This document shows positions 16,640 through 48,402 of a DNA stretch of 64,000 nucleotides, piece by piece (position 1 is the first letter of the stretch; every line of letters begins with the position of its first letter). The translations under genes and the position numbers were made by a program. The notes beneath the pieces are model-generated. The model ran no database searches. It worked only from the letters and a program-made list of their open reading frames with translations, and had not been told where the DNA came from. This stretch comes from Circinella umbellata (lineage: Eukaryota > Mucoromycota > Mucoromycetes > Mucorales > Lichtheimiaceae): the NCBI GenBank assembly GCA_025093555.1, contig JAIWNF010000065.1, forward strand, positions 1 to 64,000, given 5' to 3'.

Positions 16640-17357
16640 GAAGGATGTTTTCAAAGAACTTGATATCAACTTTTTCGCGCAGTGTCTTTTCAGTTGTTCG
16701 TCTAATTCTTTCATGGGAGGGACGTTGCATATAATTGGATCCCTTTCGTTAGTTGTGATGCTAACGGAGGGTTGCGTTTCGTCAATTACTGCAAAAACTT
16801 CACTGTTATCATCATTGTCGATAACATCAATAGTGTCGTCGTCCATCATATCAATATCAATGTCCTCGTTAAATGAAGTAAAATCTTCTTCATCATGATC
16901 CATTGACGTCTCTAGCTGGATCGACGTAAAAGAACGCACAAGTGCCTGTGCATCGTGAATATTAGATGGTTCAGAGGATGAAGCCATCGTATTATTATCG
17001 CCATAATCAAAAATACCATCATCATATACATCGTCATCATAGTCTTGATCGAAGGAATAGTCATCATTATTCACATCTGCTGCTAAATTATTGTTAGTAA
17101 TAGAAATATTAGTATTGAGCTCAGCAAAAAACATCATTGGAATGAGAAAAAACAGAAGTAATATTACTTTCAGGTACAGCGCGACTTGGCAAGCTAGTTA
17201 TACCGACGCTTCTTCGTTGTCTCTTAGTTGGAGGTTCAATGGGATTGTTAGGATCGGCGTAAGGGTTCTTTTCGCATTCATTGTCCTCATGTTGTCTAAG
17301 ATGTACTTTAAAAACAGGTCTGTTGCACCAAATACATTGTTTTGTCTTTCCACGCAT
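16640..17357 (-). pseudogene. Element A transposase, N-terminal exons only
   Basis: Exon 1 (17357 to about 17174) encodes CIWCNRPVFKVHLRQHEDNE and the following Cys, a C-x2-C...H-x5-C zinc finger, then a basic KRQRR patch. A GTAATA...TTTAG intron leads to an exon rich in Asp/Glu (about residues 65-200), the same zinc-finger-plus-acidic start as the transposases B, C and D. Similarity and frame end near 16655. The Cys-rich, catalytic and C-terminal parts are absent, so the element is deleted on this side. It faces the partner gene at 17561 across 203 bp. Confidence 0.75.
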
Positions 17358-17560
17358 TTCGATTCGAAGGTTTTGTGTTATTAATAAAGTTTTTAAAAAA
17401 GGAGTAATGAATAACTTTCAAGCGGGTTAAGCAGTAATGATCAAGATTCATGATTTAAAATTTTTTAAGTGACAATTTGAGGTCAGCCAATATTGTATAT
17501 GAGTGCTGGCTCTTGAAAGTACGTACCCCCACCTTTTATTTTCTCAATTTTTTTTATATA
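17358..17560. promoter_or_regulatory. Shared promoter region of divergent pair A
   Basis: Only 203 bp separate the two opposite start codons, so the promoters must overlap. The region is T-rich on the partner-gene side (TTTTTTTTATATA just before the ATG at 17561). The comparable spaces are 288 bp in B, 287 bp in B', 237 bp in C and 368 bp in D. Confidence 0.5.
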
Positions 17561-18816
17561 ATGAGTCAACAACAACAACAACAACATTCGTATATTCCGA
17601 TGATGAGTCACCATCTTTATCAGGGTATACCAGTTACCCCAGTGGAAGCCATGATTTTGGCGAAGCTCGACCGTTTGGAGTCCAAGATGGATCTCATTCT
17701 GGCGTCGAAGGACCAGGCGGGCGAAGCGTTGGAAGAACCTGTGGAGGAGGCCGGTGACGATGAACCTCCTGTTGAGTTCATTCGTCAGCCGCGCAATGAG
17801 CAAGGCAAGGTCCGCAATGCCAAGATTGCTGATGTTGATGCAGCTGTATTGGCATTGTCCAATATGGACAATTCAACCAAGATGCTGAAGATGGCTCGCT
17901 TGGACAACCATGTCGAAGCTGCCATCAAGCAACTGAACTCGATCGCAGTTCGTAAGGGGACTGCTGGCTTGCCATGGTCCAGCCAAGATCACGGGGTGAC
18001 GAGCTCCATCATGAAGCTCTTCACCGAATCGGTATCAAAGGGTGATCCCTGGATACCGATCGAACAATGTGAGAACAACTGGATGGCCAGGTTCTTGTTG
18101 CTCCAGAAATGGAGCAACGCATCAAAGAAGAAAAGGTTAGTGATACTAAGATAACATGGTTTAATGTGTAACTTTATAAGCTATAGTTAAAGTTTTTGAA
18201 TACTCATTTTCATATTTGTTTCACTATAGCGGAGGTGTTGGAACCGATGATGCTCAAAGGTAATCTATATCCATATCCATATCTTTCTTTTTTCAATATA
18301 AATAAATATAATTCTAACACTAACTATAACTTAATTATTGAAAAGTGTTGGGACTGTGGCTTCGGAGGAATCGAGGGAGATTATCCGTCAGTTCTCGGTT
18401 CCTGGAACAAGGTATATAACAGTATAAATGTAGTATACAACGAGCTGTAAATGTAACATTTAAAAGATGGCTAATTTCGAATTTCTAATAATCTTTCTAG
18501 ATCTGGCCCTGCGGCCCAACATCCTGTACTGACACGGGATGCTTCAATGTATGTTTGTTATATCTTCAACCTGTTTATAATCGTGTAATGACTCAAGATA
18601 TTTCTCCAACTTTTTTTTTATATCTTAGGCATTCCGTGCACAGTGATGGGAGTGCGAGTACTCATGGGTATGTATATATTTGTATTTTGATATATTTGAT
18701 GGTTATATTCTACTATAGCAGTATAAGCTTTCAAGAAATACTAATTGAGTTTTTTTTATAGTACTTCATCAACCATGAGTATTGCTCGCAAACGGCTCTC
18801 GAGCTCTTTGAGCATC

Positions 18817-18862
<46 letters not shown>

Positions 18863-18924
18863 GCAACAGCAATAGCAACAACAATCGCCCGTTTATCCGT
18901 CGAAGAACGGATAAAAGTGGGTAA
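17561..18924 (+). CDS. Element A partner protein, micro-exon gene (306 aa)
   Basis: Modelled exons: 17561-18135, then micro-exons of 30, 66, 48 and 39 nt starting near 18229, 18347, 18501 and 18630, and a last exon 18762-18924. All introns are GT...AG and phase 2, and the total of 921 nt is exactly divisible by three. The protein starts MSQQQQQQHS and has a heptad-like segment (MILAKLDRLESKMDLILASK). Exon 1 ends shortly after EQCENNWMARFLLLQKWSN. The micro-exons are Ser/Thr/Gly-rich. The last exon has a Thr and Asn run and a basic end (RPFIRRRTDK). No lesion is seen although its transposase partner is deleted. I recognise no domain. By position it may play the role of plant En/Spm TnpA, binding element ends (inference). 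Confidence 0.72.
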
Positions 18925-22014: not shown

Positions 22015-24133
22015 TATTATAAAAAGTTACAGAGTAAAAAGCTATAGAATAAAAACTTGACAGATTGAAATACTATATAATAAAAAGTTACGGAGTAAAA
22101 AGCTATAGAATAAAAACTTGATGAAATAAAAAGACAATAGAATAAACATTACTAGAATAAAAAGCTATAAAATAAAAAGCTATAAAATAAAAAGCTATAA
22201 AATAAAAGTTAATAGACTAAAAAGATATAGAATAGAATATTAATATAATAAAAGTACATGCAATAAAAAAATGATCGAATTAAAAGATAATAGAATAAAA
22301 GTTTATAGAATAATAGCTACAGAGTAAAATATAAATGATACAAAAAGAAAACAGAATTAAAAGACAATAATATAAAAGTAGATGAAACAAAAAGATGTTC
22401 AATAAATCTTTAATTAGATGTAAAGTTACAGAACAAAAGTTGATAGGATAAAAAGTTATAGAATATAAAGTTGCGAATAAAAACTTATAGAATAAAAAGC
22501 TACAGAATAAAAGCTATAGATTGAAAGTCACTAGAATAAAAAACTACAGAATAGAACATTGATGGAATAAAAGTTAATAGAATATCAAACTATAGAATAA
22601 AAAACTGATAGAATTAAAAGATGACTGAATAAAAGTAAAATATTAATGAAGTAAAAGGACAATGAAACAACAAGAAATTAGTATAAAAGTAGATGTAATA
22701 AAAAGCTACTGTATAAAACATTGATGAAGTAAAATATTAATTGAGTAAAACATTGATAGAATAAACTATTGATAGAATCAAATAATAATGTAATAAAACA
22801 TTGGTATGATAAAAAGTTCTATGATAAATGATGACACAATAAAAAATTTTAGAATCAAAAGATAGCAGAATAAAAGATTCTAAAATAAAAAAATATAGAA
22901 TAAAAAGTTATAGATTAAACAGATAATACAATGAAAGTTAACAAAATAAAAAGTTATATGATAAAAAGTTACAGAATGAAAAGTTTTGGAATAAAAAAGT
23001 TGTTGATGGAATAAAAAGTTGGAGAATAAGAAGATAATAGAATAAAAAGAAGTAGAATAAAAAGTTGTGGCATGAAAGTTGACAGAATTAAAAGTTGATG
23101 GAATAAAAAGTTACGGAATAAAAAGTTGTAGAATCAAAAAGTTATTGCATCAAAGTTGACAGAATCAAAAGTTGATGGAATAAAAAGTTTGGAATAAAAA
23201 GTAGTTGCATTAAAGTTGACAGAATCAAAAGTTGGAATCAAAAGTTGCAAAATAAAAAGTTGCAGAATAAAAAGTTGCAGAATAAAAAGTTGATAAAATA
23301 AAAAGTTGTAGAGTAAAAGGTTGTAGAATAAAAAGTTATGGAATAAAAAGTTACAGAATGAAATAAAAAGTTGCGGAATAAGAAGATCTGGAATAAAAAG
23401 ATGTGGAGTAAAAAGATGTGGAATAAAAAGATGTGGAATAAAAGGTTGTCGAATAAGGATATGAGGAATAAAAAGTTGTGGAGTAAGAAGATCAGAAATA
23501 AAAAGTTGCAGAATAAGAAGTTACAGAATAAGAAGATAAGAAATAAAAAATTGCAGAATAAAAAGTTGCAGAATAAGAAGTTGTAGAATAAAAAGATCAT
23601 AGAATAAAACATTGCAGAATCAGAAGTTCTCAAATAAAACATTGTGGAATAAGAAGATTATAAATAAAAAGCTGCGGAATAAGAAGAGGAGGAATAAAAA
23701 GTTGTGGAATAAAAAGTTGCGGAATAAGAAGATCAGAAATAAAAAGTTATGGCATAAGAAGATGAGAAATAAAAAGTTGTGGAAAAAAAAGTTGCGGAAT
23801 AAAAAGTTGCAGAGTAAGAAGATGAGAAATAAAAAGTTTTGGAAAAAAAAGTTGCGGAGTAAGAAGATAAGAAATGAAAAGTTGTGGAATAAAAAGTTGC
23901 GGAATGAGAAGATAAGAAATAAAAAGTTAGGCGCGGATAACATGTCTAGGGCTGAAAAAAATTAAATTATTTGAATTTTTTAATGTGGCTTCCGAAGGAA
24001 GCTACATCAAAAGATTACTATGCTTTGTTGAAAAGAAAATGAAAATAGGGGTTTTTTATTGTATAAAATGTGGTAAAAGAGATCTTTTTAGAATATTTTG
24101 CTTAATTTTATGTTGTTTCGATACATATTCTAC

Positions 24134-25196
24134 TGCCTTTTATTTCGTCCACAATATTTTGGTAATACAATGTTTGATACACGAAATAGAGGTGCTTGTG
24201 AAGACTCAGGCGCTGCTCGAAGTCCACGAGATGATACTGCTAGCTGTTGTGGCTGCTGTTGAGAACTATTATTATTATTATTATTATTATTATTATCTAC
24301 ATCCAATGGCGTATTTGAAAGACTAGGACTATGTTGTAGAGAAATTGCTGTTGGTGAAGTTGATGGAGTAGATACAGCATTTTGATTCCATATAATAACT
24401 GGTTACTGTAGTGTAGAAGACGGTTCATATAATGAAAAAAAAGAAGTACTATTGTAACTTAGTGGAGTAGAAGGTGTTATTTCGAGAATATTAGTAGCAA
24501 CGGAAGACAACTGTGGAATATGGGCTTGACGGTATCTAGGAACTTTATCTTGACTTGGCTCGCGAGCAGCAGGGGCTAACCGTTTTCGACTTGTATCTGA
24601 CAGTACTTCCTTAATTCTTTCTCTTTGCGTTATATTTATTTCTTTGGATACTGCAGTATTTCTAAGCTGTATGTATTGACCATAATATATTCTCAAGTGT
24701 TCTGGAGTTTTGTAATAAATATGTTTACCGTCAACATGTTTGGACCACACCTTTGCAAATGCCATATAATCAGGTCTAGAGTCTTTATATTTTTCTTCTA
24801 CTATATCTCTGAAAAGATCTCGTTCTTCCTTTGTATGAACTGGCAAAATTGGGTATTTAGTCTGTTGCTTTTTTGCTATAAGTGATATTGAGCATCTTTT
24901 GTTTGTAATGTAGATTGTGATATAGTTAGTAATGCAGGTTTTTGTAATGATGATGTAATAAATGCAGAAATATTAATACTATCATTATGTATTTCTTCAT
25001 TTGGAGCTAAATCGATTCCAAGGTCTGTAGCAAGTTTATGTGGCAGTGGTGAAATTCCAAACACTTCTTTAGATGACTCGAAAAAAACAGCATTTTGATA
25101 TACACCTGGCCTATTATAAGAATGCTCCATGTCGAATGATGCTCTCAAATCCAATATATGTTGTGTGAGCCACGGCTCATAATGGCCGTCATCACG
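24134..25196 (-). pseudogene. 3' part of an unrecognised gene split by palindrome B
   Basis: Read from the palindrome border at 25196, the frame is DGHYEPWLTQHILDLRASFD, then YNRPGVYQNAVFFESSKEVF. A frame change near 24880 joins AQYH to KYPILPVHTKEERDLFRD, and the frame continues through HVDGKHIYYKTPEHLRIYYG. A TAA stands at 24403-24405, after which the same frame goes on as a Ser/Thr/Pro-rich stretch, an Asn run (near 24273-24296) and a Gln-rich tail to the stop at 24134. The probable 5' end is across the palindrome at 37012-37161. I do not know the family. The middle block could be a small DNA-binding or protein-binding domain (inference). Confidence 0.55.
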
Positions 25197-25249
25197 TTAA
25201 GAAAAATGAGGTGTAAAACCCGGGTTTTTTCAGTTATCTCCAGTTCTGT

Positions 25250-25560
25250 GGATTTATGGTGAAAATTGACAAAATACCTAAAACCCACAGAACCAAAATA
25301 TACAGATGAAAACCGACACAAACCGAAAAGTACAGTGAATTACATACGTTTACAGAACCAGAATATACAGATGAAACCGACATAAACCCAAAAGTACAGT
25401 GAATTATGTACGTTTACAGAACCAGAATATACAGATGAAAACCGACATAAACCCAAAAGTACAGTTAATCACATAAGTTTACAGAACCAGAATATACAGA
25501 TGAAAACCGACATAAACCCAAAAGTACAGTGAATCACATAAGTTTATAGGACCGATGAGA
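25250..25560. repeat. Subterminal repeats, left arm of palindrome B
   Basis: About four tandem units of roughly 58 bp, each containing TACAGAACCAGAATATACAG, then ATGAAAACCGACATAAACCC and AAAAGTACAGTGAAT. The inverse set is at about 36648-36958. Such subterminal arrays are the binding sites of the helper protein in plant En/Spm. That role here is inference. Confidence 0.75.
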
Positions 25561-25818
25561 ACAAGAGAACACAGCATTTTATATAGGATCACAAATATGA
25601 ACAGATAATAACGTCGATTTACTGAAGCTCAAGTTCCCAAACAACACCATATTACTTAGAGTTTTCATAGCAGTTATTTTATCATATAAAGAGACCAGCA
25701 TTTTTGCTTTTTTTTTATTAAGTTATTATTAAAAGTGTAATATATACCATTGGGTATTGTACATTGGGTATTGCTTTCTTGAATGCTAAAGTTTCAATTT
25801 TCGCAAAGTTACGTATCC

Positions 25819-27072
25819 TTAAATATTGTTGGTGTGGTCAAGTATGTTTCTAACAAAAATAAAAATAGAAAATACGTAGTCCACGTTTTACTATTATGTA
25901 GGTATTTTTTACACCCATTTTATTCTTTACCTTCTGTCGCTTACTACGCTTCTCAGTTCTTCTGGATCTATGCTATTACTAACAAAAATAAAGTGAATCA
26001 GTTATAGCAGTTTTGATTGTAGCCCATTTATATATACATTTTTACATAAAATTTTGGGAGTATCAGGCAAGGGTTTTCATTCCTTACCTATCAGATGATA
26101 CAATACTTAAAGATGGTGTCATTAAATTTTGTTGATCCGTGGTACTTCTTGATATCAAAACATGAAAGTTAGCAGTGTTCCAATACATTCAATTGTTATT
26201 TTATATCTTACCTTTGAGATATAATATGGTCATATAAACATTCATCGCTTTTTTTTTAAGAAAAAAGTAAGTACATAATAATAATGAATAACCGAACATA
26301 GTTTTAAACAAAAACAATTGGATTACCTTCGTTCGTGATCTACTTGCTCTGTTGTCTTTCGGTTGTTCCATCCTTCACCCAGCATATGATTGGCGGCCCA
26401 ATCATCTTCACAAAGTTTTAAATCAATGAAACATCGATCTAATACTGCCTTACCAAATGCATCAAAAGCAATCTTTTTTTCATTGTCATTGATACTTCCC
26501 CAAGCAACCTTGACGTCTGCTTCTTGTAATTTATTGGCTAAGGCGTCTAATGTTGACTTTCGCTCAGCCACCATTGTATTATATATCGCTTCAGCTTGCG
26601 CTTGGGATATATTACTAGTATTTTGCTTCCCCTTGACCACCTTATTTATGATATGGTCCTTGGTGACCTTGTCCCTGACTTCTTTCCGTTTTCCTCTTGA
26701 AATAACTGCTTTTCTTGGTGCAGGAACAACATTCTCAAAATAATATTGACGTCTTGCCAAAAGCGACGCTGCTGACGTTGCTGATGCTGTACTGTTTGAT
26801 TCTAGCATTGAAGTGAACAGATTATTCGAATCTGAAGGATTTGCTTGATCAAACGAGATACTTCTTGATATTGTTTGAAGCGAGATTGCCGATTCTTTTA
26901 AATCAGTCATTGCCGAAAGTAATTCATCGGCTCGAGTCTTTATCTCGTTCTTTAATTCATTGACCATATTCGCCAGGTCATTTTGAGCATCGTATAAAGT
27001 ATGCTGGTCCTCTGCGATGCTTGTTAATTGGCGCTTCAGTTCCTGTATATCTTGATTGGCTTTTGGTGGCAT
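25819..27072 (-). CDS. Element B partner protein, micro-exon gene, left arm
   Basis: Same structure as its inverse copy at 35134-36387: exon 1 from 27072 to about 26327, micro-exons of 36, 57 and 48 nt, and a short last exon ending at 25819. All introns are phase 2. The product is 305 residues. It begins MPPKANQDIQELKRQLTSIA, a long coiled-coil (about residues 5-75), and has a Ser/Ala-rich linker, ARRQYYFENVVPAPRK, and a basic stretch. Exon 1 ends after LCEDDWAANHMLGEGWNN. It differs from the right-arm copy by a few residues (Met or Thr in TSMLESN, Arg or Trp in RGKRKE). Both copies are open. Function unknown. Confidence 0.72.
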
Positions 27073-27360
27073 TATTAATTAAAAAAAGTATCAAATAAAA
27101 AAGTGTGTGGTTTTTCTATTTGGTGGAACAAGAAAAGAGGTGTATTAAAAGAAGAAAAAAAGGAAAACAGTTTTGTTGTTATTTAGTAGTCTGTTTATGG
27201 AAGAAAAATAGAGTTACGCCTTTTTTTCTTGTATCAAAGCTTTTCATGCACCAAAACCCCCCTTTTTTGCTCTCCGCACCTTTTGCTTTAACAGTGTTGG
27301 GTTTCCGACGGAAACTCGGAAACATGGAAACTGTCAACACTTGACTTTAACGAAATCGCC
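27073..27360. promoter_or_regulatory. Shared promoter region of divergent pair B, left arm
   Basis: These 288 bp lie between opposite start codons. They include a pyrimidine/purine-skewed half and a short inverted sequence GTTTCCGACGGAAAC near 27300-27314, a candidate site for a symmetrical DNA-binding protein. The same space recurs at 34846-35133. Confidence 0.45.
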
Positions 27361-30300
27361 ATGCCTCAATGTCCTTATTGCAATTTGAAACCAACTAAAA
27401 AAGCATTTATTTCACATAAACAAGAATGTTACAACAGACGTTATATAGAACCGGCAGCAGGAAAAAGACAAAAACTTTCACATTCATTCATTACCAATAG
27501 TAAATCGGCGTCTGAATCACTTTCAGCACAAGCTTCTACATCAACGTCGTCCTTTTCTTCAGCACCTTCGTCATTACTTTTACAAAGCGTCAATCAATGT
27601 AATGACTATTATGACGACATTGATGATTATGATTTTGGCTACAGTTATACGGACAATGATACCCCTGAACACGACGAATCTCATGACGATTATAATGAGG
27701 TCGACATAACTCAGTATGCTCGTCCATTGGAAAGTGACAGACGTAATATAGATGTTACCGACGGAATAGACCAAGAAAATAATTCACCTGGTTCGGATAC
27801 TATTGAGGGAGCAAGTACTGTATCATCAATAGTGCGTACACGCGAAATAAGCAGCATTTTTGATATGAGAGATATATCCAGTCGAAGGCTATCATTAAAT
27901 GAGCTACTCAGTTTACGACTATTAGAAATAATTAACCGTTTCCATCTTTCAGATGCCTGTTATGAAGAATTAGTAGCTTGGGCAAATGATATCATCACAG
28001 TTGTATCTGGAGATCAAAATGGTAACCTTTTTTTTCTTTATTTTTGAGATTTCATGACTGGATATTAATATATAAAATAAAGTGTCTAGTAATGTGTACT
28101 TCTATCAGATTCTCAGCCCACACAGAACTCAAAACGTGCTGGAAATGATTTATCCAGTTAAGGAACAGCATTATGATATATGCAAACAAGGTTGCTATTT
28201 ATTTATGACGGATGAACTGACAGAGTGCCCCAATGATAAATGTAAACTGCCAAGATACAAGAATATCACTGAAAAAAAAGCATATGCCACAATGTTATAC
28301 TTGCCAATTGCCGACCAACTTGCCACATTTATTGCTCATTCACCGACACGTCAACTTTTACGGAACAAAGCAACGTCATCTGGGGAAGTTCGTAATATCT
28401 TCGACGGGTCTGTAGTCAAGGAAAAGTACTTGGGTGATAATGACCTTGTTTGTGTTTTATACGTCGATGGATTCCGTCCTTATATACACAGTGTTGTATC
28501 CATGACAATAGTACATCTTGTATTAATGAACCTTCCAGATGATAAGATGTAAGCATTACTTTCTTTGGTTAAACATCGACTGTTACGATTTTAGCGATAA
28601 AAAGTACCAACTTCATATATATTTTATTAGGTACAAAAATGAGAATATGTTGCAAGCATCAATTATTCCAACATCGTCCCACGATGATAACCTCGATTCA
28701 TTTTTGGCGCCCTTAATACAAGAAATGAAGCAGTTGGAAAGTAGGGGTATCAATGTACTTTGCGATGATGGCGTTGAACGGCATTATACAGCAAATTTAG
28801 TCATGGCAACTGGTGATATCCCCGGATGTGCCAGCTTGTCTCATCATAGTGGACATATGTCTTACTATGGTAATATATATTTGCTTGGAGTCTAATAAAT
28901 GTTCAATATATATATGAGAGTCCTATATACTAAGTGATATTATACTATAAGTTGCCGAATTTGTTTGATCAAAGGTCAGCGCCTTGAGAGCCCTAAATCA
29001 GCATCCCGGTGAGAAAACAGCAATAATTCTTCTGCAGGATATGGGATGTACTTTCCTGGTGAACCAGGTCCACTACGCTTGGAATATGATTTCAGAACAG
29101 GGGATAAAGTATTATTTCGCTCTTTTCTTTTTTGCTTTTTCTTTTCTTCGAAGCCCAAAATAATATTTTTTGTTTTTAGGAACATAATATAAAATCACCT
29201 AGCCCGTTTACAGAACTGCAGTCATTTTCAGGATCCGGGCCCTTTTTCTTTGGATGTGATGAAATGCATTTATATGGATGTAATATTGGTCTTGGCATTT
29301 TTGCTTGGCTCACAAATCCCATATTACGTGCTCCATATCTACTCAATAGGACTCAAAAAATTGCTGTTAGCAAGGCAATCAAAAAATCAATCCCAACATG
29401 GCCAGGAACATTTGAAGGAATAATTAAAGGTAGAGGATGTACTTCTGTTTTCTTCAGCTTAGTTTTCTATATTCTTTGTATACGTTTTTTTTCTGATACA
29501 GCTCTAAATTAGACATTATGAACACAACAAAAGATTCTAGAGCTGTTGGTTTCATCGCTCTGCTTCAATATGTAGTACCAACTATTGTTATTGATCAACT
29601 CGAAGCTACCAATTGTCCAAAGGAAGCAATATATGCACTTGTGTGTCTTGTTAAGGCATGCTCGTTGTCATTGTCATGGAAAATTAACACAGCTGATATT
29701 GAATCTATTGATGAGTAAGTAAATGTGCGAGATCGTTTGGTACTGATGATGTAATAGGATTCATATTTGAATATATATATATATATAATAGAGCGGTTAA
29801 ATCCTGGCACAACTACGCAGTTGATAGTGTTCCTAAGAGTCTCCAAACAGTCTGCTTACATTATCTTCATCATGTTCCTGAAGTCTTAAGGTTATATGGC
29901 TCATTACGAGGAATTGGAGCAAGGTGCATGGAGCGTTCAGTTGGGCTATTCGACAAAATGATCAAATCAACAAAAAGTCCAGGTGTGAATGCGGGCAATC
30001 AGCTGAAGATGGTGGCGGCAAGCCGATTTCAAACTAGAACAAATAAGCAGGAAATCATTGAGCTTGAAGAGGCCGACTTAGAGGCAATCAGAAGTCAGGT
30101 TATCTATTATGGTGATGGCACAAGTAATGAACCGGAACTATGGGGACCTCATTTGGCTGAAATGTCTACAGATGATTTTGCTGATACATATAACCTGAGC
30201 CGTTACCTTCATAACTATTGGGCGCGTGTTCGAAAAGTACTACCAGGTTCACTCCCATCGTTGAAAAAGAATATTCATGTTGGTAAACGTCTTAATTTTA

Positions 30301-36387: not shown

Positions 36388-36647
36388 GGATACGTAACTT
36401 TGCGAAAATTGAAACTTTAGCATTCAATGAAAGCAATACCCAATGTACAATACCCAATGGTATATATTACACTTTTAATAATAACTTAATAAAAAAAAAG
36501 CAAAAATGCTGGTCTCGTTATATGATAAAATAACTGCTATGAAAACTCTAAGTAATATGGTGTTGTTTGGGAACTTGAGCTTCAGTAAATCGACGTTATT
36601 ATCTGTTCATATTTGTGATCCTATATAAAATGCTGTGTTCTCTTGTT

Positions 36648-36958
36648 CTCATCGGTCCTGTAAACTTATGTGATTCACTGTACTTTTGGGTTTATGTCGG
36701 TTTTCATCTGTATATTCTGGTTCTGTAAACTTATGTGATTAACTGTACTTTTGGGTTTATGTCGGTTTTCATCTGTATATTCTGGTTCTGTAAACGTACG
36801 TAATTCACTGTACTTTTGGGTTTATGTCGGTTTTCATCTGTATATTCTGGTTCTGTAAACGTATGTAATTCACTATACTTTTCGGTTTGTGTCGGTTTTC
36901 ATCTGTATATTTTGGTTCTGTGGGTTTTAGGTATTTTGTCAATTTTCACCATAAATCC
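36648..36958. repeat. Subterminal repeats, right arm of palindrome B
   Basis: Inverse of 25250-25560: about four units with GGTTTATGTCGGTTTTCATC followed by TGTATATTCTGGTTCTGTAA. Small differences between the arms (for example AACTGTA against CACTGTA) are present. Confidence 0.75.
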
Positions 36959-37011
36959 ACAGAACCGGAGATAACTGAAAAAACCCGGGTTTTACACCTC
37001 ATTTTTCTTAA

Positions 37012-37161
37012 TGTGTGCTGAAGTACGAGAGATACTCGTTCAGGTTGGGTTATTTTAGCCCAAGTAAGAATGGAGGGAGATGAGGTGTAGAATGAAGATT
37101 TTGAAAGATTGTTGCCCGTGGAGCGGTCGGGCGATTTCTGATGAGAATCGGGAAGAGCCAT
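37012..37161 (-). pseudogene. 5' end of the gene split by palindrome B
   Basis: The frame starts ATG at 37161 and runs MALPDSHQKSPDRSTGNNLS, then SFYTSSPSILTWAKITQPER and VSLVLQH up to the palindrome border at 37011. On the other side of the palindrome (25196 leftwards) the same strand opens with DGHYEPWLTQHILDLRASFD. Both pieces end exactly at the palindrome, so I infer one gene with an 11.8-kb insertion in its early coding region. The junction is too altered to rebuild a unique target duplication. Confidence 0.55.
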
Positions 37162-37552
37162 GACTTCTGAACAGTAGCTATAGAAACTTTTTAATATTAA
37201 TGACTAATATCAAGTACCCAACTTTACTGTCAATCACCCACATCATTCTATTAACTAAGCCCTACACCATGGGAAGTAAGGTGAACCAGGTGAACCAGGT
37301 GAACCAGGTGAACCAGGTGAACTTGTGATTTGGAAGTCAGTAGTGTATTTCTCGTTTTGGCAAACAGTGTAACAAAAATAATCCAATCATAAGTCGTAAA
37401 ATAAATCATATAAATCATAAATGTTATTGTAAATATTTTATTATTAAAATCATATTGTTCATATTATTATATATCATATATCATTGTTGGGGTGGGGGGC
37501 GTTCGCGAGTTGATATGGGGAAGGACTGGGAAGCTACACGCTTCCTTAGTCG

Positions 37553-38866
37553 TCAAGCAGGAGAGGGAGAGAGGGCAGGAATAGGAGAGAGGGCAGGAGC
37601 AGGAGCAGGAGCAGTAGTGGGAGCAGTAGCGGGAGCAGGAGCGGAATAGGTGGATGGAGAAGTAGTGAGAGGAGGTTGTTCGAGTTCGTGTGTAATTGGC
37701 ATAAGGAATCGTAGTTGTTGAATTGTAGATGATGATGGCGATGGTGAAGGAGCAGATGGAGAAATTGGTGGGGGTGGTGGCCTATAAAAGAAGCTCCGTA
37801 TTAGAATAACATTATAAAATATATTACCAAGTTCTTGTTATTACTTACATTTGATCTTGGGTATTTGATTCAGTGTGATCACTGGTCCTATAAAGAAAAC
37901 CTTTTAGTACATCTAGTTTAACATGAGCTCATACATAACTTACATTGACATAAGTGACCCTTGAGTTCGTAATGTTGGTGTTGGCGAAGCTCCTCGTTGG
38001 CTAGATAAACCCATACGACTCCTACTCATATCTGTTAGTACGAAACAATATATGAAACATTGATCGGGTATAGTTACTTACATTGCTGACCGAGCACCAA
38101 CAGAAGAACCTGCAGAGTCATTTGTATTAGATCTATAGATAATATAATTAGTAGAAAATATTATTAATTAATACAACTATTTAATAATTGAATTTACTGG
38201 TAACACCCATAATTATATATAAATATACCTGACGATTGATTTGAAGACACTGTGGATAAAATAATTCGCTACCCAATGATTCTTACACTTGTCAATGGGC
38301 AACTTATACATGCGCTTGATGTTGTCCTCGAACTTTTTAATTTCCATCCTCTTGACCTGGGATGGGAAGTCTTTATAAGTCGCCACTGAAGGAAACTGAT
38401 CCAAGGCACATTCAAGATCTCTTTTGTGCGTTCTCGACTCCTTCAGCAACGACTCATACATACTGTTCACGCTTTCCTCACCGATGTTTCCATTGACTTT
38501 TAAGAAAGTGAGAACAGCCTTTTTGTCCTTTCCATTGCCATATCTTTCAATGGTGCCAGTGGAGGTGAGATCTGGCGCACCAGGAGGAGGTTGGTAGTTG
38601 AGCGACATATACTCGCGAAACAGCTGCTCTCGCTGCTCTTCAGTGCGATACGTAGCAAGCGGCATGGCGACAGTACCAAGTGATTGTTGTTGTTGCTGTT
38701 GTTGCTGTTGTTGCTGCGGATTGTTACGTAGATGTTCTTCAACAGCTGCCACACATTGCTTGATTTCTACAACGTCATTGCGCAATTGCGAAATTGAATC
38801 ACGAATCTCTAAGAGCAAATCAAGATAGGGATCAGTTGGTACAGATTGCTGATTAGTGGGATTCAT
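37553..38866 (-). CDS. Element C partner protein, micro-exon gene (344 aa)
   Basis: Exon 1 runs 38866-38229, then internal exons of 51, 78 and 39 nt (near 38138-38088, 38020-37943 and 37891-37853) and a last exon 37781-37553. All introns are phase 2 and the 1035 nt are divisible by three. The N-terminus begins MNPTNQQSVPTDPYLDLLLE and continues as a coiled-coil (ISQLRNDVVEIKQCVAAVEE) and a Gln run. Exon 1 ends soon after DKCKNHWVANYFIHSVFKS, the same Trp motif as in A, B and D. The last exon is Pro/Ala/Ser-rich. No lesion is seen. It stands 237 bp from the divergent transposase. Function unknown. Confidence 0.72.
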
Positions 38867-39103: not shown

Positions 39104-40235
39104 ATGCCTTTACTTAACGGTCCAATTTGTCCAATCTGCTCATTACCACAACGCGTTAGAAACTTTGAAAACCATGTTTCTTCCTGTAGTAAGTCAAATA
39201 CATACCGGTAATATAAAAATGTACAAATAAACTGGCTTCTAATGTGTGAAAATAGCTGGTGTTCGACCTTATAGGGATCCCAAGTTATTGAACGATGCCT
39301 TACCTGTTAATGTTCTAATGATCTCTGAGCAAGATGAGGATTATATGGTTCTGGATACTTCACCGATCCAAGAAGAGCTCACAGGTGTTCCCCCAGTAGC
39401 CAACTATGATGACGGTGATTACAGTGATTTTGATTATGGCGATATGCAACCTGTTGTTGGCGAGCAAGAAGTCGAAGGGGATGCGGATGATGATTATCCA
39501 ACAGATAAAAATTATATGGATGCTGGTGAAGATGAAGACGAAGCAGGATATGATGATATCGGATTGGAACAAAGCATAGATCATAGAAACACACCGGATG
39601 TTGTAGAATATGTTGATCCATGGGACAAACAGCCAACACTACAAACTGACCAATGTATCGAATATACCGAACATGGCACAATCCCTTTGGACAGCCACGA
39701 AAAAAAGAGCTATGAGCTTTATAGCTGGGCGCAACAGCAAAATATCAGTAGATTTGCATATGAAGAGTTACTCAAGCTATTGAATAAATGGATTGTGGAT
39801 GATGATGGATTTAGTAAGTGTTTTTTTACATTGGGTTTTATAATTCATTGTGAGACAGTACCTAAAAGTCAAAATAAAAGATGGCATGCCTTTATATTCC
39901 CCTCAGAAATGTGAATCACGGATGGAAAAGCTGTTTGACCTCCAGGAAACCAAGTATCGCGTGTGTCCAAATGGTTGTCGTCTTTTTCCACAAGGTTCAA
40001 CCGATCCTTGTTTATATGAAGCAGTGCAATTCAAGCCCAATGGTACTCCTATCAAAACCATGTCATACTTCCCACTTGCAAAGCAATTATCAGCCTTTGT
40101 TGCAGATGATAACACTCGTAATCTCCTTTTACAAACTCGAGAACAAACTGAAGGTGTAATGACGGATATATTCGATGGATCTGTATACCAGGCTTGTAAG
40201 CAAGAACTCTTTCCAACTGATATGGATATTGCGAC
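39104..40235 (+). pseudogene. Element C Tnp2-like transposase, truncated by hAT
   Basis: Exon 1 (39104-39188) encodes the zinc finger CPICSLPQRVRNFENHVSSC. Exon 2 (about 39256-39813) is strongly acidic and ends with the conserved block YELYSWAQQQNISRFAYEEL. Exon 3 starts near 39867 with the Cys cluster YRVCPNGCRLFPQGSTDPC, then MSYFPLAKQLSAFVADDNTR and TDIFDGSVYQ. The frame is interrupted after PTDMDIAT at 40235, directly before where element D has its catalytic VDGF motif. All catalytic and C-terminal parts are missing. Confidence 0.82.
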
Positions 40236-40676
40236 TAGGGATCCTCATGAGAACCGAAGAACCGGAACCAAACCGGAACCAAACCAAGAAAAGTTGAGAC
40301 GGTTCTATGGAAGGAACCGACCAGAACCGACTTGGTTCTACATGGAAAGAACTGAGAACTGACATTATAATTTAGTAGATGTGTGAGGCCAGGACATTAT
40401 GGCTAAGAAAACGTTAATTGCAAAAGTAAAACATAATTATAAATAGCTTGGGACTTTTTTTATATAAAGTGTAAACTGTTAAATAAGAGAAGCGTACAGA
40501 TTTTATTAATATGTATTGAAAAAAAAGAAGAATAGCAATAATTATAAAAATAATAATAATGGAAAGAATAATAAAGGAAAGAATAATAAAGGAAAGAATA
40601 ATAATAAAAAGAATAATAATAATAAAAGAAAGGGAAAGAGCAATGAAAAATAGTATAATAAAAAGAGGTAGAAGTG

Positions 40677-42502
40677 TTACTCGTCAGAATTAAAAGAAGT
40701 CCAAGAATCTAAAAGCATTAGTCTTTGTATGGTCTCTGGTGACAAACGGTTACATGTATAAGGTAAAAGGAGTTGCGTTTGTGAAAAGCAGCGCTCAGAA
40801 GGAGTGGAAGTTACTGGTACTGCGAAATATTGGGCAGCCATATGCGCCAAATTAGGCCACTGTGACTGAGCCTCCCAGTATAAAAATTCAGGTGCCTTTT
40901 GACCTTTCTTTCGGAGCATTGTCACACGCAATCGTTCTTGAAGATAATCGTCAAGTTCGTCATGTTCATCGTTTGTATTATACAAACTATATAACCATTG
41001 TCATTCTTCGTTTGCTTCAGACTCCATTGTTACAGATTTGGGGAAATCTGCCCAAGCATCCCTAACCATCCTTTGGCTCATGTTCTGGTATTCCTCTTCC
41101 CAACCACTGGTATGCCACCAAGTAAACTTCATATGCGGATCAAGGGCCGTTGCAACTGCATATATATGTGTATTATCAACCTTATAGTAATATCTTTGCA
41201 GCTTTTGTAATCCACGTCTTGCTACTCTCTTGAGTTCAGCTGGATAATTACTACTTTCGACATCTTCCAAGGAATCCATTATCAAATTATAATGAATGAT
41301 GGCGGTATTAATTGTCGCGTGGCTTTGACTTGCTGATAACTCAATGGTTGTCTCCCAGAACTTGAGAAGCATAGACTTGACCTGGGAAATGCTCGTCCAT
41401 TCAAGATCACTTAGCTGGAACTCTTGCAATTCGGTATTTGTAGAACACACACTATTGTATAGGACTTGTAACAAGGATGCTCGTGTCAACATTTGGTAGG
41501 TGGAGTTCCATTGTGTTGGTACATCAAGTGACAGCTTGAGTTTTGTTGCACAATGTAATTCTTGTGCGCGCATAAATCTCTGTTTGTTGTGGTAAGGACC
41601 TATATTTATTGTGATATTGGATGTTTAATGAGTATTTTCTGATAATAACAACTTTTTTGCAAAAAAAAATAGTGTTTATCATACCGTATTTTTGTTATGC
41701 CTTTTCGAAGCTTAATAAGTGAGCTCATCACTTGTCGTTCGCCATTGTCCCCAAAACGATCGTGCTTGTTTGCTCTTTCTGGATCGTCGCGATTTTCTTG
41801 CTTGACATATGATTCATTCATACCCTACTTCAAAATATCTTGAACGGTTAAATTTAACACATGTCCAAGACACGGTATATGATGGCTTCTTGTACGAAAC
41901 GGCCTATAGATAGGTATATTTATATTAGTGTCATGTTGATATGTTTTGATATATTGTATAATGTTTAACCTACCATCCTTTTTCTTCAGCATATTTTTCT
42001 ACTTCCTGGGCCATTCTTTTCATGTTGGATGCGTTGTCAGTTGTAATTGTGAATAACTTGGGACCTAGGTTGAAATTGTTGATAATTTCCAAGAATGCTG
42101 CTGCCAAATTCTCTGCCAAATGAAAACCATTCAATGGCTGCAAACCAAGAATTACTTTGTGCATCGTCCAAGTAGAAGTTGATATCCAATGACCGGTGAC
42201 CACGAGGAAAGCATCGTTATATGGACTAGTCCAACCATCAAGTGTACAAGAAATTACAGGAAGGGAATCTAGCAAGTTGTGCAGTTTTTTTTATAAAAGT
42301 CATACTCTTCTTTGGTCTGAAGGTAAAAAAATATGATGTGTTAGTTTGTTAAATATAATGACAAACAAAAAAAAAAGGGGGGCAGAAGTAATATTTTACC
42401 TTTCTTGTAATAGTGTCTGTACTTGGAAGTTTTACCATTTCCATTGCTATTGCTGATTGCACAATGTTCAAGAGCTTTTGTAAATCGTCATTCTCGGCCA
42501 TG
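40677..42502 (-). pseudogene. hAT transposase, catalytic and dimerisation parts
   Basis: Continues, on the minus strand, the BED-finger part at 48403-48809 after removal of element D. Blocks in order are AENDDLQKLLNIVQSA, then an exon with the RNase H-like core (SCTLDGWTSPYNDAFLVVTG, FTITTDNASNMKR), HIPCLGHVLNLTVQDIL, LSLDVPTQWNSTYQML, and the C-terminal hAT dimerisation domain (YFAVPVTSTPSERCFSQTQ). In-frame stops occur just after VQDILK (near 41822) and after ESEANEE (near 41001). Together with the D insertion they make the gene inactive. GT...AG introns separate the exons. The family is BED-type hAT of the Ac group. Confidence 0.88.
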
Positions 42503-42720
42503 GTACACCATGGGAAATTTTCGCGAGATTCGCGAGGTTTGTGGTATAGCATTATAACTCAGTGCAGGCAGGTTCTTAATTTAGATATTTGTACTCTCGA
42601 ACGTAACCAAATGAAGTTTTAGTCTATTTATATCTCAGTCACTCCTTTAACCAATAATACAGTTCAAATTGATATAAAGAATAATAGTATATTTTTCAAA
42701 AAAAAAAAGTTTTATTTCAT

Positions 42721-42932
42721 TTACCGACGATTTGTCGGAACAACGGCATTTGTTTTACTTCTCTGCCGTTTTGAAGAAGGTGTGGAGGAGGACGGAAAAG
42801 AGGAAAGACCAAAGTTGCCTTGTGGTCGCTTAGGATACTGGTTATCCTGCATAAGAGTAACCGGATCTGACGCGGAAGAAGTAGAAGAGGAGGAAGGGAC
42901 GGAGAACGAAGGGAGGTGGTGGTTTTGGATGG

Positions 42933-42964
<32 letters not shown>

Positions 42965-44144
42965 GAAGAAGTTGCAGCAGCAGACAAACTATATTTATAT
43001 GAAGATTATGATCAGAATTTATGATCAGAATTCATGGAATAAAATGAGTACTTTAAATTGTTATTTTGCTTACCTGGCGTTTGCTGCTATGCTGTTGTCA
43101 TCTTCGTCTTCAAATAACGTCCTAATATTAAATATAAAAGAAAATATTATTATTAATACAGTTTATTTATTGACCATGTACATAACTTATGAAGACATAA
43201 TGGCGGACAATCCACCCTCGCTTGCCATATCCATGTAACTTCTATAATATTAAGAAAGAAAAACGTGTGAGAACACACATATATATACATTATTTGATGT
43301 ATTGCCCATTAGTTAATGAAACATACCCCGAATACACGGATGCCGTGCGAACAAGAGCTTGTTTTTTATCTCTATAATAAATGTAAATCGTCAATACTTT
43401 TTTAATCTATATTCATATTTATATATATGTAAATCCCAATACATACCTTTGAGAAGTACTAATGTGCTTCTCAAAAAGATAGTACACCAAGTAGAGTGAA
43501 ACCCAATTTTTCTCATACAAATCAATTGGGATGTCATCTAAATGGTGCTTCATATAGATCGAGACATCCATGGCCAACTTGTCTCTAGCCATTTCGGTGA
43601 GCCCACGGAAAGTTTTGATTGTTTTATTGGGACGGGCATCCCAAACGGCTACAAGTCGTTTATGGAATTTAGCCACAATCTTGACCATGGTGTCCATCAT
43701 GGCAACTTCATTGGGGCCAGTAAGCTGCAAGACCTCGCCGATGAAGTGTTTTCTAATGAGGCCCTGCGTGATCTTACTGGCATCCGGCTTGCGAATCACG
43801 CCCGCCACAGGAATACGGTATTCTGCCATTCGTTTGTACGGCTGGATGTCCCGAGAAACATCCAACAAGGGATCATCGTCCACGAGATGGTGTTGCTGTT
43901 GCTGCTGCTGCTGTTGTCCATGAACTGGGTTTTGCACGGACAGTGCTTCTTTGATAAGAGCAACGGATGACTCAAGGTTAGCCACCTTGTCGTCAACCTT
44001 GGCCATCCAGCTGCGCACGTCTTGCATAAGGACATACCAATCGGGTGGAGGAGGAGGATGGGCGTATTGCGGATACACCAATTGGTAATATGCTTGGTGT
44101 TGCTGGAGAGGTTGTTGTTGAGGTTGTTGTTGTTGTGTGTTCAT
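42721..44144 (-). CDS. Element D partner protein, micro-exon gene (367 aa)
   Basis: Exon 1 runs 44144-43447, then exons of 45, 45 and 48 nt near 43377, 43240 and 43125, and a last exon 42988-42721. The spliced length of 1104 nt is divisible by three with all introns phase 2. One donor (near 43194) is a weak GTCTTC. I start at the ATG at 44144 (MNTQQQQPQQQ), like the Gln-rich starts of A and C, rather than at 44213. Next come a Pro/Tyr/Gln-rich stretch, a coiled-coil (VRSWMAKVDDKVANLESSVA), a Gln run and a conserved core ending LYEKNWVSLYLVYYLFEKH. The last exon has a Thr run and a basic end (SSKRQRSKTNAVVPTNRR). No lesion seen. Confidence 0.72.
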
Positions 44145-44512
44145 TTCGAAATGCGAAGTAATTGAAACAGATGAAACAAAAGAATTTTTTTTTAATTCAG
44201 GTCGCTTCGTCATGTATTCAAAAATGCTGCGCAGAATGTAGTCACATAATCAACAATCACATAATATAAAGTAGTACAAAAAATGTTTGGTAAGTATTAC
44301 TTCTTGAAATAGCTGGATAAATCTTTTACTTAACCTTAGTGATTATTTATCCTGATTAACGAATCGGAAGACTGTAACTGTTTCATACACGCATATTTAT
44401 ATACCCGGTCATTGATGAGGATCTAATATAAATAGAGAGATTATTTCATTTGTCTTTTTATTTTATTAATTCTGATATATATAACATCTACCTTACCCAT
44501 TACTACCAAATC
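44145..44512. promoter_or_regulatory. Shared promoter region of divergent pair D
   Basis: This 368-bp space lies between the two start codons. It includes one GCGCAGAAT core (about 44229-44238), as found repeated in element C. T-rich and AT-rich otherwise. Confidence 0.35.
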
Positions 44513-47500
44513 ATGCCCAGAACTATCCTTAGTCATTGCGATAAATGCAAATTATATTGGAAAAAAACAGTGTTCCAGCAACATTATAGTACTTGTGGTA
44601 ATATACAGTATTATTCATACTTATGAAAACTCTAAAATCAATTAGTACTGAAAAAATTCTAAACATTGTCATACCTTTAATTAATATCAGATCCTGATGC
44701 TTTCCGAGCTCTCTCAAGAAATAACGTCATTGATCCCGAAATTTTGCCCGAAGCTCCTGCCACCACCACAGCCATTCCATTCATTGTATCTGGGTCTGCT
44801 GATTTTTCAATGGATCGCGATACTGAACAAGATCATGAATCAATGGGTTCATTCGGAGGCGACTTTGACGATTTCGACTTTGGTATTGATGGTAATAGTG
44901 GTCAAGAGTATGAACAAAGAACAGACCCTGATGAAGATAATGATAATGTAACTGATGACAATTACACGGATGATGATAATGATGATGATGATGATGAACC
45001 GGGACCATCCGATCTTCAAGAAGTAAGTGAGAGTATCGAAGATGAGGAGTCGATAGACAAATATGTTGACCCTTGGGATAATGAACCTTCATTGCCTACA
45101 AATGTCCCCATTGTCGAAACCGTGTATGATTTTACCGAACTCCCAAAGCACGCGCAAAAGAGTTACGAGCTGTATGCATGGATCCAACAGTCTAACATCA
45201 GCCGCGACGCCTATGGTACTTTACTCAAAATGTTGAACAAGTGGATTATGAAAGAAGGTTTTGGTAAGTACAAATTACATTAAATATATCTATATAAATA
45301 TGATCTACTGTATTTTATTAACAGAAATTTCAGAAAATATACCTTTATATTCACCAGCCAAGAGCGAGGCGCGCCTAGAGCGAATGTTCAATGTCAAGGA
45401 GATCAAGTATCGCATATGTCCCAAGCATTGTAGACTTTTCCCCCTTAATTCAGTTGATCCTTGCAAGTGCAATGCTTTGCAATTTAAACAGAATGGAAAT
45501 CCCATCGAAACAATGTCATACTTCCCATTGTCAAGACAACTGGCAATGTTCATCGCAGATCCTTACATTCGTGAATCTATACATGAAAAAGTAAGCCATG
45601 AAGCTGACCCTGGCATATTAACTGATATATTTGATAGATCCATATATCAGTCATTCAAACCAACTCTCTTTTGCAACCAATCATCTACTAATCTTGACCT
45701 CGCTGTATCTTTATTTGTGGATGGGTTCACTCCATTCAAAGGGGGAAATTCCAGGTTGACAATTGTTCACTTGGTTTTGCTGTCGCTCCCTCCGCTTGAA
45801 AGGCAAGTATCTACTATTATTTTTTATTATTCAACTATATACTATTATTTTTTATACTCCTTCACAATTACTTACACAATATTGTATTGTCATCAAATAG
45901 ATACAAGGCACAAAACATGATGCAAGTCGCTATAATACCTGCCGATCATACTGGAAACATTTACAGTTTTCTTCGCCCGCTAATGAATGAGTTGCGTGCT
46001 CTTGAGGATGCTGGGATGATAGTTGATTGTGCAGACGGGCCAATCAATGTCAAAGTACATTGCTTACTTGGGTCAGGCGATATCATCGGCGTTCAAGAGT
46101 TGATCCATCACTCAGGTTGTATGTCGTTGTATGGTTGCCGTCAATGCCGAATAACTACAGTCTGAGAAATTAGTCCAGCAGGTCGAGGATATGGCAGATA
46201 CTATACTGGAACAATCGAAATGTCTACTCCAATAACGGATGATGAATTTAAAGGAGATAACAATGTAAGTTTAGCACAATACAAACGCATGATGATAAAT
46301 AATACGTAGGATTGTCTATTTATTTTTCAATAACTTACTTTATTAATCCGGTTATGGATAATTATAATTGGTCATGTTTTTAAAAAAAAAATAGGAATAT
46401 GGTATTAGCAAGGCCACAGATTTTGCCCAACTGAAATCGTTCCATGGTTATTCCTTCTTCGGATTGGACGAACTACATCTCATAGGCGCGAATGTTATGA
46501 AGAGAATATGGCAAATGGTATCCGGTGACTTTGCTACTGATGTGAACACGACCATCCTACTACCGAAGCAAGCATCTTCAGCTATTGGGAGTGCTATAAC
46601 TGCATCAGCTGCGACGGTACCATCTGCTCTATTTGAAGGAAGTTTCAGAGGTAATTAATGAACATAGTTTATGAGAAAAACTTATTTATCTATATAAATA
46701 TTAACTTACCTCTCATATATTTAGATGTGTACAAGAAAGCTGGTCTAATGCGATCTGTTGATTGGATCGTTTTCTTGCAAGCAGTGGTCCCCACGTTGGT
46801 CTTCGAACATCTTGTAGAAGAATACACGTCTTCGGCGGACCAAGTGAATGCGGTCATGTCTCTGGTAATTAGGTGTACTCTGGCTCTTCAGTGGAATATG
46901 GACTAGGAAGATCTTGCCAATATCAACACGTAAGTTTATAATAATCAAATTATTCAAGCCTAACTATAACTAACAATGAACCATATCTATAGAAATCTTA
47001 ACACTTGGCATATCCATATGAAGAACAAAGTCAGCACCAACATGTACAATGTCAACTTTCATTATCTTCGACACATCCACGAGATATGCTTGAAACTAGG
47101 TCCATTGCGAAGTTATAGCACACGTTCTGCTGAACGTGCAATTGGTACATTAACACATCATTAACAAACATATATTTTATTTTAACATATAAACATATAC
47201 TTACCAATGCTCCAATGTTTGTATAGGGTTCTTTAAAAGACATATCAAGCAACATGTTTCCCCTGGCTCCAATGCCGCCAACATCATAAAACGTCACATA
47301 ATCACACGTGCCTAGCGCCGCATGTACGTCGAAGAAGATATAGTAGAGGAAGTAGAGGAAGCAGAAGAAGACGAAGACATAAATGACAGTGACCAATATA
47401 CCATTCCGAATGGTAACCAAGAAATTGAACTATGGGATTGGCACCATACCATGCTGGAAATGTATTCCAGTAAGTACAGCCTGCTCCGCTTTCTTCAAAA

Positions 47501-48086
47501 GTATTGGCACAACCAATTTCGCGATAGTCGAGTGCTCACTAGTACATTGGATACCCGGATTCGAGTTGGAAAACATCTCTTCAAAACAGACACTATCTTT
47601 AGGTGTGAAGAATATCCTGGAACGGCGCGCAAGTTAGATACCCTGGTAAAGCTAAGGCTTCCAATTAGAGGACGTAGTGGCAGTACGGCCTTCTATTTTG
47701 GTGAGTTAATGCTATTCTTCACTCATCAATACCAAGGTACATTTTCATCTGCAATATAAAAACTATACAATCTATTATAATAGCAATATACTTACTTTTT
47801 AATTTTTTTCATAGGCGATGAACAGCAGCTATGCTTAGTAAAGCTGAATGGTAATCTCAAAATGACAGAGTACGGGTTGGGTGCACGCCCAAGATATGGA
47901 ACACCTTATGGTTATAGAACAAGTGCAAACACCAGTGAAAGTGACAAGTACTTTGTGACTGGTTGTGAAAATCTTTTGGGATATGCGGGTCTGTTACAAT
48001 CTTCACTTCACCCCGGTCGCTACTATGTTGTCTATCCTGACATGATACCTGGCGACATAACTCTCGGAAACATTCGTGACATTTAA
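44513..48086 (+). pseudogene. Element D Tnp2-like transposase with three stops
   Basis: Exon 1 (44513-44597) gives the zinc finger CDKCKLYWKKTVFQQHYSTC. Exon 2 (about 44693-45263) is acidic and ends YELYAWIQQSNISRDAYGTL. Exon 3 (45325-45801) has the Cys cluster YRICPKHCRLFPLNSVDPC, TDIFDRSIYQ and the first catalytic Asp in VSLFVDGFTPFKGGNSR. A GC-AG intron (about 45802-45900) follows. Later exons contain NMMQVAIIPADHTGNIYSFL, GCMSLYGCRQCRI, the second catalytic block SFFGLDELHLIGANVMKRIW, RSAERAIG and the C-terminal YFGELMLFFTHQYQ and GRYYVVYPDM. In-frame stops: TGA near 46162-46164, TAG near 46903-46905 and TAG near 47319. Otherwise complete, so it decayed after insertion. Confidence 0.85.
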
Positions 48087-48402
48087 CTTTGAAATTTTTT
48101 ATCTTTTATTTTTTTTACCATATTCATTCTTTTCAAAAGCTGCTCTTCTTTTCTTTAATATTTTCTTTCTCTCCTTTTATTTTGTTTTTCAACTTTTGTT
48201 TTTCAACTTCAACTTCCATTTTTATCATTATATATACTCAATAGTTAAATCAACATTACACAGATTTCCAAATAAAGTTTTTTTCTTCATAATTGTTACA
48301 CTAGTCCTCGCGAACCTCGCGAAACTATCTCATATTTGGAAATTCGTGTTACAACAATCCTCGCGAACCTCACGAATCTCGCGAAAATTTCCCATGGTGG
48401 TA

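Follow-up and report, generated by a model that had tools for sequence, protein, structure and literature searches.

Accessory genes with small, phase-2 internal exons in CACTA-like transposons of Circinella umbellata

Helper Genes at the Locus

The stretch of DNA described here, called the window below, is a 64,000-nucleotide (nt) part of the 50.8-Mb assembly of Circinella umbellata (Mucorales), and all genome-wide searches were run on that assembly. Between 12 and 49 kb the window holds four transposon lineages, A, B', C, and D, each with two divergent genes: a transposase and a second gene, termed here the helper gene. The two start codons lie 204 bp apart in A, 289 bp in B', 238 bp in C, and 369 bp in D. 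A preliminary description had counted five helper genes, A, B, B', C, and D. Each of these elements does carry one, but B repeats B' exactly in the opposite orientation; counted as a single gene, they leave four independent ones. Spliced by hand, they run from 17561 to 18924 (A, forward strand), 35134 to 36387 (B', forward), 38866 to 37553 (C, reverse), and 44144 to 42721 (D, reverse), with the following parts:

17561-18135, forward: helper A exon 1 (575 nt), coding a probable coiled coil and a helical C-x3-W domain (AlphaFold2 pLDDT 88-96); identical in the public protein P0001
18230-18259, forward: A micro-exon 2, 30 nt, phase 2 at both ends; in hand model, predictor, and public model
18346-18411, forward: A micro-exon 3, 66 nt, phase 2 at both ends, SREIIRQFSVPGT module
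18501-18548, forward: A micro-exon 4, 48 nt, phase 2 at both ends, LTRDASM module; in hand model, predictor, and public model
18629-18667, forward: A micro-exon 5, 39 nt, phase 2 at both ends, HSV module; in hand model, predictor, and public model
18762-18924, forward: A last exon; in hand model and public model
35134-35879, forward: helper B' exon 1 (746 nt); hand model
35959-35994, forward: B' micro-exon 2, 36 nt; in hand model and predictor run
36059-36118, forward: B' micro-exon 3, 60 nt; from hand model and homolog comparison
36228-36275, forward: B' micro-exon 4, 48 nt; split differently by the phase-blind predictor
36357-36387, forward: B' last exon, NILDHTNNI; from hand model and homologs
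25819-27072, reverse: helper gene B, inverted repeat copy of B', 100% identical
38229-38866, reverse: helper C exon 1 (638 nt); hand model
38082-38132, reverse: C micro-exon 2, 51 nt; in hand model and predictor run
37944-38021, reverse: C micro-exon 3, 78 nt, carrying the QGSLMSM module; in the predictor its acceptor lies further on, which gives 57 nt, again in phase 2
37849-37887, reverse: C micro-exon 4, 39 nt; in hand model, predictor run, and public model
37553-37781, reverse: C last exon; in hand model and public model
43447-44144, reverse: helper D exon 1 (698 nt); the public model P0012 begins upstream, at 44213
43327-43371, reverse: D micro-exon 2, 45 nt; in hand model, other copies, and public model
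43191-43241, reverse: D micro-exon 3, 51 nt, followed in the window copy by a non-canonical 5' splice site
43074-43121, reverse: D micro-exon 4, 48 nt; in hand model and other copies
42721-42988, reverse: D last exon; in hand model and other copies

The general plan given in the preliminary description, a long first exon ending after a C/Y-x3-W motif and followed by small internal exons, holds in all four genes, as does its claim of uniform phase. All 17 introns of the hand models (56-109 nt in length) are in phase 2, and all 13 internal exons, of 30-78 nt, are multiples of three with phase 2 at both ends. These small exons make up 13-20% of the coding sequence. Three lengths had to be revised. 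The third exon of D, first given as 45 nt, has 51 nt, and the 5' splice site at its end, non-canonical in the window copy, is canonical in all 11 other copies; the spliced total of D would then be 1110 nt rather than 1104 nt, and a recount of B' gives 921 nt rather than 918 nt.

Evidence for the Exon Architecture

The exon architecture is real in these four independent genes. The most direct evidence is the public annotated protein P0001, which agrees with the spliced product of gene A at every one of 306 residues and maps onto the same six exons. Public models of the other genes agree in part. P0026, the model of C, shares exons 3-5 with ours and differs in exons 1-2. P0012, the 288-residue model of D in the window, starts 23 codons upstream of our start and meets a stop inside exon 3; the micro-exons of D are seen in P0011, P0015, and P0017, and in P0012 as far as its stop.

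A predictor blind to phase gave similar results. A first version, frame-blind and using splice sites with no coding signal, recovered between none and four introns per gene exactly, was too weak, and was replaced by a Viterbi gene predictor which combines intron-side splice matrices, made without the gene's own family, with a codon model and has no phase preference. Applied to A-D, it found phase 2 in 17 of 18 introns both at lam 5 and at lam 6, and in 15 of 17 at lam 7. At lam 6 it reproduced 13 of the 17 hand introns exactly (A 5/5, B' 2/4, C 3/4, D 3/4). At the end of B' the hand model is favoured over the predicted split, since the last exons of the related genes L041 and L051 share NILDH in the frame of the hand model and so fix the frame of that exon.

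The same predictor was run on 13 other representatives from the C. umbellata genome, misfits included, and on four divergent transposases. At lam 6, phase 2 was found in 28/40 introns of the representatives as compared with 11/43 in the transposases, and internal exons divisible by three numbered 20/28 and 15/39, respectively. The Fisher p values for phase and for exon length (5e-5 and 0.007 at lam 6, 0.0019 and 0.009 at lam 5, 4.5e-6 and 0.001 at lam 7) are optimistic, because introns within the superfamily are not independent, L024 being kin of A and L051 kin of B. Many introns predicted in the transposases are probably not real; the chief value of this control is to show that the predictor has no bias of its own toward phase 2.

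A clear phase-2 cassette was seen in L061, L062, L083, L051, and L024, and a partial one in L059, L064, and L023. For L062 the phase was read in the open frame of the tail; its exon-1 frame has a stop, and the first predicted intron is probably spurious. Eight further genes (L016, L019, L020, L041, L070, L072, L088, and L089) were run and kept outside the count as kin of counted genes; among them L016 had no tail that the predictor could find, and L020 and L089 gave mixed phases. L087, with all introns in phase 1 and intron 1 placed differently, was dropped as a copy of C, and L039 is B' itself.

A genome-wide excess of phase-2 introns had been named in the preliminary description as an observation that would undermine its claim. 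No such excess appeared in the elements' own transposases (11/43, as above) or in the core genes of Fusarium, for which the source, available in part, gives 215:172:147 introns in phases 0:1:2 (PMC5677156). Both are stand-ins for Circinella host genes, and the fungal baseline is that of Fusarium.

Could the pattern have been produced by choosing splice sites to fit it? The tails are of low complexity and the DNA is AT-rich, so that many GT and AG dinucleotides are on offer. In addition, the end of D exon 3 was at first misplaced, the predictor misses 4 of the 17 introns in their exact form, and the public models of several copies give a different intron 1. Against this stand the identical public model of A, the tails of a second species, C. 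minor, the phase-blind prediction in relatives outside the window, and the in-frame conservation of tail modules. With the identity of P0001, the phase-blind predictor, and the C. minor tails, chance and modelling artefact can be set aside, and we regard an artefact as very improbable.

Helper Protein

AlphaFold2 with the family alignment predicted a long helix at residues 27-56, which is probably a coiled coil, and a helical domain at about residues 70-190 with block pLDDT values of 88-96. Modelled alone, the domain reached a pLDDT of 89.8 and a pTM of 0.80. It is predicted to be compact and all-helical, with an invariant tryptophan and a near-invariant cysteine; in the 25-member alignment the W of C-x3-W is invariant and the C is present in at least 90% of members. 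After residue 200 the block pLDDT falls to 43-54, and the Ser/Thr-rich tail is predicted to be disordered. Searches of Pfam, of Protein Data Bank (PDB) sequences, and of PDB folds gave no convincing relative of the helper protein.

Tail Modules Across the Family

How far have these genes diverged? Exon-1 proteins found matching stretches in the C. umbellata genome at E <= 0.1, self included: 33 for A, 60 for B, 39 for C, and 18 for D. Weak cross-matches between the four join them in one superfamily. The preliminary description held that the proteins had diverged almost beyond recognition, which proves too strong, because short motifs are shared between subfamilies in the order of their exons. 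In A and L019, successive exons carry SREI[IV]RQFSVPGT, then [LI]TR[DE][AV]SM, then HSV. The motif QGS[LF]M[SD][MI] is common to C, L088, and L083. B', L041, and L051 have in common NL[MS][TV]P[ST]L, which stands at an exon start in L041 and L051 and inside the exon in B', and also NILDH[TE] in the last exon. For this comparison exon borders were marked, L024 had no in-frame end, and L062 was read in its own tail frame.

Tail modules were also found in 8 of the 11 homologs retrieved from Circinella minor. Between A and P0003 of that species, identity is 5/10 residues in exon 2, 21/22 in exon 3, 13/16 in exon 4, and 12/13 in exon 5. The micro-exons of D match those of P0016 at 8/15, 14/17, and 12/16 residues, and those of C match P0028 at 14/17, 21/26, and 10/11. 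Judged by their sequences, the tails are homologous and recognisable between subfamilies.

Some further observations concern the copies within subfamilies. In comparison with the A gene of the window (17561-18924), copy L010 is 95% identical in exon 1 and 100% identical in micro-exons and introns, which points to recombination or conversion between copies. Among the A copies, and among the D copies L070-L079, helper introns have diverged less than the synonymous sites of exon 1; the transposase columns of this comparison looked misaligned and were set aside. This was considered as a sign of regulated splicing and was not used, because copies recombine, composition differs, and the synonymous divergence of micro-exons is about 1-9 times the intron distance on few sites. 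Six very similar copies of one helper subfamily, L042-L047, perhaps represent a recent burst. At 54189-54625 (reverse strand) the window holds a remnant of a further helper gene of the B group.

Possible Gain, Loss and Omission of Units

The gene L062 indicates how a cassette may change. Its self-alignment has an E value of 1e-25, and its successive units, each an intron plus a micro-exon, are alike, as tandem duplicates would be; in 5 of the 10 unit pairs the score exceeds that of every one of 300 dinucleotide shuffles. In L023 a hand-picked 48-nt micro-exon is partly repeated (36 nt, 78%, E 2e-4) with a start-to-start spacing of about 150 nt.

These resemblances bear on a second possible origin of the pattern, independent insertion of introns at proto-splice sites (AG/N) in Ser- and Arg-rich tails with no logic of modules. 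Of 42 junction codons, 18 begin with AG and 20 encode Ser or Arg, as such insertion would have it. The other 24 do not begin with AG (AT in 8, AA in 5, and others), so proto-splice insertion alone does not explain the pattern. The modules and their order are, moreover, common to subfamilies, and the units of L062 resemble duplicates. We consider this origin improbable.

Three database models lack one micro-exon and stay in frame: P0025 lacks exon 2, P0008 of C. minor lacks exon 5, and P0029 of C. minor lacks exon 3 together with three residues of exon 2. These models are the sole hint of skipping. The arithmetic of the preliminary description was right that any micro-exon can be omitted without change of frame. 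Because intron lengths are mixed modulo three, it is skipping, not retention, that is generally frame-neutral. Exon-skipping isoforms are therefore possible on the arithmetic of the sequence, and transcripts of SmTRC1, an animal CACTA element, and of maize Spm are described as alternatively spliced in the available part of one source (PMC1636069). Selection for alternative splicing, with several tail isoforms per gene as in the micro-exon genes of schistosomes, might have kept the cassette; that one gene could yield many isoforms was the view of the preliminary description. However, exon 2 of P0025 has a 1-nt deletion in its locus L075, so that its omission looks like a choice of the predictor and not like regulated splicing; P0008 and P0029 are gene predictions only; and the phase is already accounted for by descent and unit turnover. 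Such selection is compatible with the inherited cassette proposed below, but we think it unlikely to be what kept the cassette. It is similarly doubtful that the disordered tail is spliced combinatorially into a family of isoforms, which could include, for example, activators and dominant-negative regulators of the element's own transposition.

A Proposed Inherited Cassette Evolving by Whole Units

The explanation we favour, and hold to be rather probable, is that the helper genes code for an accessory protein of CACTA-type DNA transposons in Circinella, and that its tail is encoded by an inherited cassette evolving by whole units. The cassette would comprise one to five small internal exons with phase 2 at both ends. 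Its inheritance is suggested by the module motifs and the exon order common to subfamilies. It would change by tandem duplication of one intron with one micro-exon, and presumably also by loss of such a unit. The reading frame survives such a gain or loss only when the phase is the same throughout the cassette. Mixed-phase units would therefore be eliminated, and the phase would stay uniform while the sequence drifts. Selection of this kind against mixed-phase units may be at work, and the tail may act as a set of short contact motifs. Common descent with gain and loss of whole units is a simpler sufficient cause of uniform phase than selection for isoforms.

Several results weigh against this explanation, besides the optimism of the p values. 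The hand-made introns of A-D and L019 served as the training set for the splice matrices. Five of the 13 representatives (L031, L036, L042, L057, and L060) have no consistent phase-2 cassette in the predictor. Intron 1 is placed differently by the database models P0003, P0007, P0008, P0014, P0026, and P0028. Intron 1 or the last exon departs from the hand pattern in P0002, P0010, and P0021 as well; P0010, like P0013, has no proper mapping to the locus paired with it. Within subfamilies, the ratio of nonsynonymous to synonymous divergence is 0.20-0.54 in exon 1 and 0.37-1.43, on few sites, in micro-exons, for which diversifying selection was considered. In the other nine genes of the shuffle test none of 42 unit pairs beat all shuffles, the best pairs outside L062 being those of D (4/300) and L041 (6/300), and the frame of L023 contains a stop at its repeated micro-exon. 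Finally, the Pfam and PDB searches gave no DNA-binding homology for the helper protein.

Transposases and Element Ends

The elements to which the helper genes belong have the following further parts in the window:

12676-17357, reverse: transposase region of A, with its start codon at 17357 and an approximate low end
13971-14594, within this region: open reading frame with the Transposase_21 domain of A
31419-34845, reverse: predicted transposase region of B', with its start codon at 34845 and an approximate low end
39104-40362, forward: 5' part of the C transposase, high end approximate
44513-48399, forward: transposase region of D, from the start codon at 44513; the end of the element is taken as its high end
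42506-48399: element D, with perfect terminal inverted repeats of 20 nt starting with CAC and a 3-bp target duplication GTA

The tnp2 (Transposase_21) domain was found in the A transposase with E 8.2e-13 and in that of D with E 5.7e-4, below the Pfam cut-off. Pfam gave no match for the transposases of B' and C, the latter searched as its 5' part. In BLASTP both matched the D transposase (B' at E 1e-31, C at E 2e-26), and the predicted A transposase had no match among those of B', C, and D at E 1e-3. The perfect terminal repeats of D read CACCATGGGAAATTTTCGCG, and D alone among the elements shows both the CAC ends and the 3-bp duplication of the CACTA (En/Spm) group. These ends and the duplication support the label CACTA-like for element D. 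One end of the D type lies in C, at 37265, and a scan for element ends did not resolve those of A and B.

Subterminal repeats were found in B' (65 nt, four copies at 36654-36921), in C (9 nt, 4.9 copies at 37279-37322), and, weakly, in D (9 nt, three copies at 48359-48385). By analogy, these repeats and the gene position suggest that the helper protein probably has a role like that of plant TNPA and TNP1, binding DNA at the element ends as a partner of the transposase.

Other features of these surroundings may be noted. Weak hAT-type parts lie on either side of element D, at 41001-41573 and 48330-48809 (both reverse strand), with an RNase-H-like match at E 3.9e-5 and a BED finger at E 0.016, both under the Pfam cut-offs; D looks as if it had inserted into a hAT transposon. 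B and B' together form a nearly perfect palindrome at 25193-37015, each arm measuring about 5.8 kb and the centre some 275 nt, which may be an assembly artefact or a real inverted duplication. At 22019-23899 a degenerate 15-nt repeat (ATAAAAAGTTGATAGA-like) forms a long array with strong strand skew.

Comparison with Known Systems

Among the entries listed by literature searches on CACTA elements, Mucorales and Mucoromycota, Circinella, micro-exons, intron phase, and TNPA, none described such a helper gene. The nearest counterparts are tnpA of plant En/Spm and tnp1 of Tam1. They too code for a second, non-transposase protein of a CACTA element, are small genes with many exons (11 in tnpA, according to an excerpt of PMC2613891), show little sequence similarity between families, and belong to elements with subterminal repeats. 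Maize tnpA is, however, spliced from the transposase transcription unit, whereas the Circinella helper is a separate, divergent gene and not an alternative splice product of a transposase precursor. For tnpA or tnp1, the same searches turned up neither a uniform intron phase nor a micro-exon cassette.

Short symmetric exons in series, any of which can be lost without change of frame, also characterise the micro-exon genes (MEGs) of schistosomes. In the accessible parts of the sources, exons of 6-36 bp account for about 80% of the coding region of MEGs, the products are almost always secreted or membrane-anchored (PMC5825161), and the introns reach up to 5 kb (PMC10526429). Unlike these, the Circinella genes belong to transposons, have short introns (56-109 nt), and carry only the minor share of coding sequence in micro-exons given above, far from the majority seen in MEGs.

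The transposase is of the tnp2 type, as in SmTRC1 of Schistosoma, for which matches in Rhizopus oryzae have been reported, and in fungal Transposase_21 elements. In contrast to these as described in the part of PMC1636069 available, the Circinella elements have a divergent helper gene with a micro-exon cassette. CNIRT6 and CNEST of Cryptococcus are likewise fungal mobile elements of the CACTA/CMC group, and CNIRT6 makes 3-bp target duplications (PMC12810828); they differ in being from a basidiomycete and, as far as the excerpt describes them, in having no such helper gene.

Significance

The result carries a warning for annotation: gene calls may hide lesions, since a micro-exon that is damaged can be passed over with the frame intact. 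It also defines a family of helper proteins which has no Pfam name and has a confidently predicted domain. Uniform intron phase is usually discussed in connection with exon shuffling in animals. Here, in fungi, it can be linked to a mechanism that may still be visible in the similar successive units of intron and micro-exon in L062. The system would also allow a test of whether a transposon diversifies or regulates its own accessory protein by frame-neutral exon skipping.

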